Of a DNA stretch of 64,000 bases, positions 406 to 49,572 are shown one piece after another; the first letter of the stretch is position 1; each line of letters opens with the position of its first letter. The notes below the pieces were generated by a model. It saw nothing but the letters and a program-made list of their open reading frames with translations, made no database searches and was not told the DNA's origin. The translations under genes were made by a program, and so were the position numbers. Origin of the DNA: Polynucleobacter sp. AP-Melu-500A-A1 (GTDB lineage: Bacteria; Pseudomonadota; Gammaproteobacteria; Burkholderiales; Burkholderiaceae); assembly GCF_018882125.1 (NCBI RefSeq), contig NZ_JACVOZ010000002.1, forward strand, positions 372,001-436,000, written 5' to 3'.

Positions 406-678
406 ATGGCACGCATGGTTCAATGCATCAAACTCAACAAAGAGGCCGAGGGAATGGATTTCGCACCCCTTCCAGGAGAGCTTGGCAAAAAGATTTGGAA
501 TCAAGTATCCAAGGAAGCTTGGACTGCATGGTTGAAACATCAAACTATGCTGATTAATGAAAACCGTCTCAATATGGCTGACCCACGCGCCCGTCAATAC
601 CTTTTAAAGCAAGTTGAAAAATACTTCTTTGAAGGTGGCGCAGACATGGCACAAGGCTATGTTCCCCCGGCAGAATGA
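406..678 (+). CDS. yggX: Probable Fe(2+)-trafficking protein YggX
   Basis: This 90-residue cytosolic protein matches the YggX family in length and sequence. In enteric bacteria YggX is linked to iron-sulfur cluster maintenance and protection from superoxide. The family's conserved cysteine is residue 7, in the opening [10 protein letters not shown], and the DPRARQYL and FFEGG motifs are present. A ribosome binding site AAAGG lies 8-9 bases before the ATG. It follows the argA fragment at 15 bases. The family assignment is firm; the role in iron handling comes from studies of homologues. Confidence 0.93.
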
Positions 679-739
679 TTGCTGCATCACAATAATGTAT
701 TAGCTTAAATTTTTATTAAAAATATATTTTGATTTGTTG

Positions 740-768
740 TTGACACTCTATAGCTAGAGGCATAGGAT
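740..768 (+). promoter_or_regulatory. Sigma-70 type promoter for a small RNA
   Basis: A perfect -35 box TTGACA (740-745) is followed, after exactly 17 bases, by a fair -10 box TAGGAT (763-768). This predicts a start near 774-776, right at the first predicted stem of the downstream structured RNA and not near any reading frame. Confidence 0.7.
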
Positions 769-774
769 GAAGTT

Positions 775-932
775 GTGGGGCGACAGACTTTGTGTCAACC
801 ACATTGGCGAAAGCCACTTGAGATAAACGCATCTATGCGTTTAAGGACAACGGAACCAATACTCTTCCGTTTGTCTACGCCATGTCAAGCATGGCAATCA
901 AACCCGATGGGCATACCCCGTCGGGTTTTTTT
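775..932 (+). ncRNA. Candidate structured small RNA, about 158 nt, family not identified
   Basis: The gap between yggX and rpiA contains an RNA-like unit with its own promoter and terminator. Successive stems can be drawn: TGTGG/CCACA (774-778 with 799-803) enclosing GACA/TGTC; TGGC/GCCA closed by a GAAA tetraloop (805-816); AAACGCAT/ATGCGTTT (825-842); GACAACGGAA paired with TTCCGTT plus GTC, one bulge (846-855 with 865-875); GCCATG/CATGGC (879-895); then the terminator hairpin. Almost the whole transcript is paired. No reading frame with a plausible ribosome binding site is present. I do not recognise the family. It lacks the signatures of tmRNA, RNase P and SRP RNA. A conserved RNA motif named after Polynucleobacter has been reported from comparative genomics, and this could be a member, but I cannot confirm that. 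Confidence 0.6.
901..932 (+). terminator. Rho-independent terminator of the small RNA
   Basis: AACCCGA (901-907) pairs with TCGGGTT (921-927), with an inner GGG/CCC stem, and runs into seven T (926-932). On the other strand the T run is poor, so it mainly stops plus-strand transcription. Confidence 0.85.
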
Positions 933-937
933 ACACC

Positions 938-1648
938 CTAAAATACAATCCGCTCTACACCAGCAGCATTACTCACCAAGAGTATGTTGGCCTTTTCTTT
1001 AGCAAATAAACCTACGGTGATCACCCCAGCAATCTGATTAATCATTGACTCCATTTTGATGGGATCAGCTATTTGTAAACCTGCCACATCTAAAATCCAC
1101 CCGCCGTTATCTGTAACGAATGGCTCACTTTGGGTTTGACCCAGATCGGCCCGAGTACTTTTTGCCAATCGCAAAGTAACCTTACCACCAAGCTTATCGA
1201 GCTCTCTAGTAATCGCCCCCCTCGCCAAGGGAATGATTTCCACAGGCAAGGCAAAGTTTCCAAGAACTGAAACTTGTTTTGAAGAATCGCAAATGCAGAT
1301 AAATTGTTTAGCCATCGAGGCAATAATTTTCTCGCGAGTTAAGGCCCCACCACCACCCTTAATCATGTGTCCCGCAGGATTGATTTCATCTGCGCCATCT
1401 ACGTAGGCAGGAAGACTCACCACGTCATTAGGATCTAAAACCTGAAAGCCATGTTTGAGGAGACGCTCAGTAGTCGCATTCGAACTTGAGACTGTCCCCG
1501 CAAAATGATCTTTATGGGGCGCTAGAGCATCAATAAAGCAATTCGCAGTCGATCCAGTACCAACCCCCAGGATCTGACCCGCTACTAGCTTTAAGACCTC
1601 GTCTCTTGCTGCCTCACCCACCATCTGCTTTAGTTGATCCTGATTCAT
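938..1648 (-). CDS. rpiA: Ribose-5-phosphate isomerase A
   Basis: RpiA interconverts ribose 5-phosphate and ribulose 5-phosphate in the non-oxidative pentose phosphate pathway. Visible family motifs are VGTGSTANCF near the N-terminus, VDGADEI in the middle and KGGGGALTREK, which together form the substrate site. The ATG at 1648 (MNQDQLKQ) aligns with the normal start of RpiA; a TTG four codons upstream (1660) is also open. The length of 236 residues is slightly above the E. coli enzyme. It is divergent from tal, 91 bases away, so two enzymes of the same pathway share one intergenic region. Confidence 0.95.
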   Translation of the reverse strand: MNQDQLKQMVGEAARDEVLKLVAGQILGVGTGSTANCFIDALAPHKDHFAGTVSSSNATTERLLKHGFQVLDPNDVVSLPAYVDGADEINPAGHMIKGGGGALTREKIIASMAKQFICICDSSKQVSVLGNFALPVEIIPLARGAITRELDKLGGKVTLRLAKSTRADLGQTQSEPFVTDNGGWILDVAGLQIADPIKMESMINQIAGVITVGLFAKEKANILLVSNAAGVERIVF

Positions 1649-1739
1649 CGCTTTGCTCAATGCCTTTACTGGAATGGAGTATTTAATCCATCTATCATAT
1701 GATAATCACAAGCAATCCTTTTAGATCCTTGATATCACG

Positions 1740-23468: not shown

Positions 23469-23711
23469 TTATACAGGGGCGCCTTCTTCTATACGGAAAT
23501 CAATCGCACGAGCGGGAACGATTGTAGAGATCGCATGTTTGTAAACCATCTGCGTAACAGTATTACGCAATAGCACAACATACTGATCAAATGATTCGAT
23601 ATTGCCTTGCAATTTAATACCATTTACCAAATAAATGGAAACTGGTACGTGCTCTTTACGCAAAGCGTTTAAAAAAGGATCTTGTAGCAATTGGATTTGT
23701 TTATTATTCAT
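23469..23711 (-). CDS. hfq: RNA chaperone Hfq
   Basis: Hfq is a hexameric Sm-like protein that pairs small RNAs with target mRNAs. At 80 residues it shows the Sm1 motif ([19 protein letters not shown]) and the Sm2 motif YKHAISTI, and the N-terminal [12 protein letters not shown] helix that lines the proximal face. It is followed by hflX and preceded by der at a gap of about 165 bases that holds its likely promoter. The short acidic tail (EEGAPV) differs from long enteric tails. Confidence 0.97.
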
Positions 23712-49426: not shown

Positions 49427-49524
49427 GGACGGGCCTCCCCGCATGGTGGGTTGGACAACCTGGTCAGGTCGGGAACGGAGCAGCCAAACCCAATTTCTGC
49501 CAGTGCCGGGGGTCAGGCTCGTCC
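49427..49524 (+). ncRNA. ffs: Signal recognition particle RNA (4.5S)
   Basis: The universally conserved SRP loop region is present at 49462-49485 (GGTCAGGTC, GGGAACGGAGCAGCC), with paired ends GGACGGGCC and GGCTCGTCC that close the long hairpin. The length of 98 nt is in the range for small bacterial SRP RNAs. A -10-like TAAAAT at 49415-49420 precedes it. It is divergent from dnaX. It binds Ffh to target nascent membrane proteins. Confidence 0.96.
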
Positions 49525-49572
49525 ACCCCTGCTTCATTCCATAACCCTTAAAGATCTATCCTTTAAAAAGTG

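Follow-up and report, generated by a model that had tools for sequence, protein, structure and literature searches.

Hfq-dependent trans-acting small RNAs have a promoter of their own, a structured body and a terminator hairpin with a U tail, and 6S RNA, another structured bacterial RNA, has an open-complex-like bubble. The described element closest to the locus studied here is the HRC-28-1 motif, for which Brewer et al. (2021; PMC8632094) list 33 examples, mostly from Polynucleobacter, with a PRK05408 (YggX) gene upstream and a convergent rpiA gene downstream. Their description of the motif gives it six stems, the last being an intrinsic terminator, in an orientation unlike that of a riboswitch, and suggests that it is a 3'-UTR element of the yggX mRNA (PMC8632094).

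Identity of the RNA between yggX and rpiA

The window, that is, the whole stretch of 64,000 nucleotides that was analysed, comes from Polynucleobacter sp. AP-Melu-500A-A1 and contains the following features relevant to this locus:

406-678, plus strand: yggX (Fe2+ trafficking / oxidative damage protection), upstream neighbour; PF04362, E 3.2e-43
707-735, plus strand: possible UP element, A/T-rich, 5' of the -35; A- and T-tracts at majority level, role putative
740-768, plus strand: predicted promoter TTGACA-17-TAGGAT (-35 TTGACA 740-745, -10 TAGGAT 763-768), conserved across copies
775-932, plus strand: small RNA gene, predicted transcript; probable start placed from the position of the -10
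938-1660, minus strand: rpiA, convergent downstream neighbour; PF06026, E 8.1e-54
23469-23711, minus strand: hfq; PF17209, E 3.4e-30

The family PF04362, matched by the upstream gene, is one that we take to be the same as PRK05408. When set beside HRC-28-1 as described in PMC8632094, the window RNA has in common with it the genus, YggX upstream, convergent rpiA, six stems and the terminator, a comparison of stated features rather than of the consensus sequence, in which the count of six takes P4 as one stem of two helices. Every stated feature that could be tested is found here, and the RNA belongs to HRC-28-1, a published family of uncharacterised function. It departs from the motif as published in PMC8632094 in its presence in 102 of 151 genomes, its own promoter and its copies away from yggX. 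An earlier note on this DNA, made from the sequence alone, had called it an RNA of unknown family, which is right for Rfam and wrong for the literature, where HRC-28-1 was described in 2021 (PMC8632094); our literature searches in one library returned no other paper on this RNA beyond that one.

The Rfam scan that the same note had proposed was run, and no Rfam 15 family matches the RNA: none lies above its gathering cut-off at the RNA's place in the window or in 20 loci that hold a copy. Two families scoring well below their cut-offs, RF02278 (Betaproteobacteria toxic sRNA; 23.3 bits against 50) and RF02837 (anti-hemB; 19.8 bits against 49.5), resemble it at the 3' end, where a small hairpin precedes a CCCG-rich terminator, but the alignment covers about the last 60 nt only, and the RNA is a member of neither. 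6S RNA (RF00013) is likewise a freestanding structured RNA of similar length; however, the only match in this genome is about 200 kb away (C4:572706-572924, 60.3 bits), and the window RNA is a hairpin chain whose fold is without a 6S-like bubble. A small SRP RNA (4.5S) was also identified above the Rfam cut-off, at 49428-49526.

Fold, covariation and promoter

The segment 771-932 folds with a free energy of -65.5 kcal/mol (z = -6.1), a value that none of 200 shuffles matched. The opposite strand of the same segment is also well folded (z = -4.2, again matched by none of 200 shuffles), so the fold by itself does not tell which strand carries the RNA. With the terminator hairpin removed, and with it the last base of P5, the segment 771-894 gives z = -3.0 (1 of 200 shuffles as good). 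Covariation was assessed in two alignments. A2 derives from 41 loci at 90% identity, of which 39 were used (L074 and L085 were left out); A4 comprises 51 loci, including L085 but without L074, L121, L122, L125 and L148, and was aligned to the model, hence leaning towards it. One locus cut by a contig end, L009, was left out of every alignment. The 39 dereplicated copies of A2 were used to build covariance model R1, to which R2 adds divergent copies. The stems, with the pairs that have changed on both sides, are:

774-803, plus strand: stem P1 with internal loop; 8 of 10 pairs (A2)
805-816, plus strand: stem P2 with GNRA tetraloop GAAA at 809-812; 0 of 4 pairs (A2), 3 of 4 (A4)
824-843, plus strand: stem P3, loop UCUA; 6 of 9 pairs (A2)
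845-876, plus strand: stem P4, two helices, 9-nt loop at 856-864; 4 of 4 and 1 of 4 pairs (A2)
879-895, plus strand: stem P5; 3 of 6 pairs (A2)
900-932, plus strand: intrinsic terminator, hairpin 900-928 and seven T at 926-932; 100% of cells paired, 4 of 10 pairs (A2)

Overall, 98.1% of cells are paired in the 39 sequences of A2 and 26 of 47 pairs have changed on both sides, against a shuffled mean of 10.2; sliding the partners by 1-3 columns as a control leaves 34-43% paired. The corresponding values for the 51 sequences of A4 are 97.6% paired and 34 of 47 pairs, against a shuffled mean of 19.4 and a slid-partner control of 34-46%. R1 matches its place in the window's own genome with an E-value of 4.5e-40, the window copy being part of the model. 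The P2 loop is a GNRA tetraloop in 92 of 98 copies (GAAA in 79, GCAA in nine and GUAA in four), the others being one GCAG, one AACC and four unmatched by the pattern. The P2 stem of seven of the eight divergent loci (L141-L147) is rewritten to CUGGUA/UACCAG, and six of these seven keep the GNRA loop. The longest ORFs in the 98 copies are 16-54 amino acids, with scattered lengths and starts, and overrun the end of the RNA in 74 copies.

These results bear out much of what the earlier note had read from a single sequence. The five stems, one of them capped by GAAA, and the terminator with seven T are all present in the fold, and the self-contained unit of about 158 nt that it described as lacking an ORF has no conserved ORF in 98 copies. 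That note had also named a lack of stem conservation across related genomes as the finding that would speak against it; the stems persist in our alignments through compensatory changes.

The TTGACA-17-TAGGAT promoter it had proposed is likewise present at 740-768 and kept in relatives. A promoter scan over 3 kb gave four sites where 5.1 are expected, which is not significant alone, and the weight therefore rests on conservation. We found TTGAC and TAG[GC]AT in all 89 loci compared (88 at the yggX-rpiA site, including the window's copy, plus L091), with a spacer of 17 in 72 loci and of 16 in 17 loci, and in 98 of 98 copies once L140-L148 were added under a slightly looser -10 pattern. Among 38 dereplicated copies the -35 core and the -10 are nearly invariant, whereas the spacer and the adjacent upstream sequence are far less conserved at most positions; farther upstream, A- and T-tracts reach the majority level only (about 0.5-0.7) and may represent an UP element. 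Since the first DNA query included the promoter, the promoter count in that set could be biased. Model R1 starts at 769, after the -10, and is thus promoter-free; it matches the eight divergent copies L140-L147, and the promoter is present in all eight. Seven of these were found by R1 alone, and the copy in G109 was also a DNA-search match.

At the other end of the unit, the RNA's own plus-strand terminator is missing from the output of the terminator scanner, probably because three of the T residues are paired into the stem and four are left. The same scan of the window listed no plus-strand terminator between yggX and the RNA.

Distribution and genomic context

By DNA search the sequence was detected in 94 of the 151 Polynucleobacter genomes sampled, and R1 found the RNA in 102 of the 151, or 82 of the 117 of good quality; counts with R2 were identical. 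Secondary matches with E-values of 3e-5 or worse, which accompany the main match of a genome and almost always lie on its opposite strand, were left out of the copy count. With 49 of 151 genomes having no R1 match, the RNA is not essential to the genus. Outside Polynucleobacter, matches at E <= 0.001 occurred in 11 of 398 genomes of a family sample and three of 300 of an order sample, making 13 genomes since G161 is in both. We inspected the matches in 11 of these 13 (all but G698 and G727) and rejected them as copies: they score 25-43 bits, lie in a tRNA, in GC-rich terminators and in what by our reading is a GAPDH gene's 3' end, and have no such promoter in any of the 11. In the two samples, which are parts of larger groups, we saw no convincing copy outside the genus, though rare copies may exist elsewhere. 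A pattern scan of one genome per species returned 72 stretches, 66 of them in Polynucleobacter, Burkholderiaceae or beta-proteobacteria records; R2 was scored on three of these 66 and matched all three, and the remaining six of the 72 were rejected, having no model match. One viral pattern match, in an ORF read as a phage portal protein, has no model match either. The earlier suggestion that the family is either Polynucleobacter-restricted or new therefore stands in its first half, as copies were found only in Polynucleobacter, and falls in its second, as the family was published in 2021.

Locus analyses covered the 102 matching genomes without G012, G106, G119 and G120. Of 99 loci, 89 have the order yggX, RNA, convergent rpiA, one is cut by a contig end and nine are elsewhere; at 90 loci the RNA ends 5-37 nt from the end of the rpiA match. 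Seven of the nine copies at other sites (L141-L147), which form a divergent sub-family of the RNA away from yggX, lie downstream of a PIN-domain gene of the same orientation and face a convergent SRPBCC-like gene, with the PIN gene about 0.9 kb from the RNA in L142 and the SRPBCC gene matched over a short piece only in L147. The other two lie between AzlD and LysR genes (L140) and between a Pfam-less ORF and a ChrR-cupin gene (L091), giving at least four kinds of site: yggX/rpiA, PIN/SRPBCC, AzlD/LysR and beside the ChrR-cupin gene. All nine copies at other sites have the promoter and the terminator hairpin, with a poor T run in L091. Comparison among genomes thus shows that a predicted sigma-70-type promoter, a six-stem RNA and a terminator hairpin are conserved as one unit, also at other loci. 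No mobile-element gene was recognised beside the RNA in the four away-from-yggX loci for which ORFs were listed.

For comparison, 28 genomes were picked for having the RNA absent (22 of the 49 without a match) or elsewhere (six). None of the 28 has such a promoter downstream of yggX. The two genes are convergent in 27, with -1 to 113 nt between match ends, the exception being L250, where rpiA was not seen beside yggX; among the 22 examined that have no RNA, the two genes abut in 21. One genome nested among RNA-carrying relatives (L226) keeps, directly after yggX, a hairpin that resembles the RNA's terminator and looks like a remnant after deletion of the RNA body. In another, G011, where the RNA sits elsewhere, the yggX match (L252) is split by a TGA and accompanied by a second short match, and the gene looks broken.

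In a rough YggX-RpiA tree of 116 loci (without L091, L009 and L250, and without G109, G053, G120 and G096, four genomes that have the RNA at another site), all 89 loci of the yggX site fall into a single clade (support 0.925), inside which three RNA-less genomes and G011 are nested. Five genomes of the PIN/SRPBCC type and five RNA-less genomes form a separate clade (0.956), and 13 RNA-less genomes lie across the midpoint root, with several nodes poorly supported. The tree is compatible with gain within the genus, then losses and relocation. With some doubt, we put forward the possibility that the RNA arose in or entered Polynucleobacter and that promoter, RNA and terminator move together as one cassette.

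We consider it very probable, from sequence comparison, that this is a freestanding small RNA gene, given that the promoter is conserved, nine of 99 copies are elsewhere, and yggX and rpiA abut in nearly all RNA-less genomes examined. The published suggestion of a structured 3'-UTR element in the yggX mRNA (Brewer et al. 2021, PMC8632094) agrees with the position of 89 of 99 copies, directly downstream of yggX and in its orientation, and read-through transcripts would carry the RNA, as no plus-strand terminator was listed between the two. We nevertheless find it improbable, because the element has its own promoter in 98 of 98 copies, has no yggX beside it in nine, and is absent after yggX in all 28 genomes picked for lacking the RNA there; what this study adds is the evidence that the RNA is not tied to the yggX mRNA. 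Less probable still is that the element mainly serves bidirectional termination or insulation of the convergent genes. Its end does lie close to rpiA at 90 loci, the divergent copies too sit between a same-strand gene and a convergent one, and the L226 genome retains just a similar terminator hairpin after yggX, but a promoter and five upstream covarying stems would be superfluous for a terminator, and relatives manage with a short hairpin or nothing. We give least credit to a dual-function RNA encoding a small peptide: although a 75-codon GTG frame (775-1002) spans the RNA, it crosses the terminator and overlaps the end of rpiA on the other strand, the ORFs of the 98 copies are scattered in length and start, and the covariation matches structure, not codons.

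Proposed mode of action and significance

The best explanation as a whole, to which we assign a probability of roughly 0.55, is a freestanding HRC-28-1 RNA gene whose product acts in trans with the help of Hfq. The RNA would have its own transcript, starting near position 775 and ending at the T run at 932, and would act in trans, stabilised by Hfq at its U-rich 3' end. Pairing with target mRNAs might use the P4 loop as a candidate seed, P4 having the only long loop of conserved type as judged by eye, and the pyrimidine-rich 3' side of this loop could compete for Shine-Dalgarno-like GGAAG sequences. The likeness to Hfq-dependent trans-acting small RNAs lies in the promoter, structured body, terminator hairpin with U tail and presence of hfq in the genome, which is indeed in the same window at 23469-23711 on the minus strand, as the earlier note had said. 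Unlike them, the window RNA has mostly short loops, and Hfq action is here a proposal for which no target was found. Most loops being short or capped, there is little room for a seed, and we rate the Hfq-assisted base-pairing mechanism taken by itself at slightly less than even odds. The genome's global RNA-binding regulators appear to be a small set: it has Hfq, and no match to ProQ (PF04352) or CsrA (PF02599), both of which were detected in an E. coli control.

Possible targets were sought in two ways. In 29 genomes, the P4 loop and the P2-P3 linker were compared with the 5' parts of four genes, nat, yggX, rpiA and tal, and complementarity was at shuffle level: the eight comparisons gave mean z values of -0.27 to +0.84 (mononucleotide shuffles), and the P4 loop against nat, which had z below -2 in the most genomes (three of 29), has a mean z of -0.26. 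A 12-nt P4-loop complement was also located in four closely related genomes, at 16 places including the RNA's own antisense in each genome. The place common to all four, inside an ORF read as glnA, was set aside as explained by protein conservation, and the other places in these genomes are in or opposite reading frames, none of them at a start site. With no unusual complementarity to neighbouring genes and nine of 99 copies at other loci, the earlier hint of a link to the pentose-phosphate genes nearby is not supported.

The main rival to base-pairing is that the freestanding RNA binds a protein, as a scaffold, a decoy or a 6S-like RNA, instead of pairing with mRNA. A compact series of hairpins whose loops are mostly short would suit such a role, as would a GNRA loop kept in 92 of 98 copies even where the P2 stem is rewritten in divergent copies, and so would the failure to find an mRNA target among the four neighbouring genes or with the P4-loop complement in four genomes. 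On the other hand, 6S RNA itself is encoded elsewhere in the genome and the fold here is without a 6S-like bubble, and two known RNA-binding partners, CsrA and ProQ, were not found in the genome, so that we see protein binding as rather unlikely.

Polynucleobacter is an abundant freshwater genus, and our literature searches in one library found little on RNA-based regulation in it. The evidence for a gene of its own shifts the experimental focus to the RNA alone rather than the yggX mRNA. If the movement as a cassette is true, the family would be a genus-specific regulator that relocates. Conserved together with its promoter and present in 102 of 151 sampled genomes, this RNA is a good candidate for a main regulatory RNA of Polynucleobacter.
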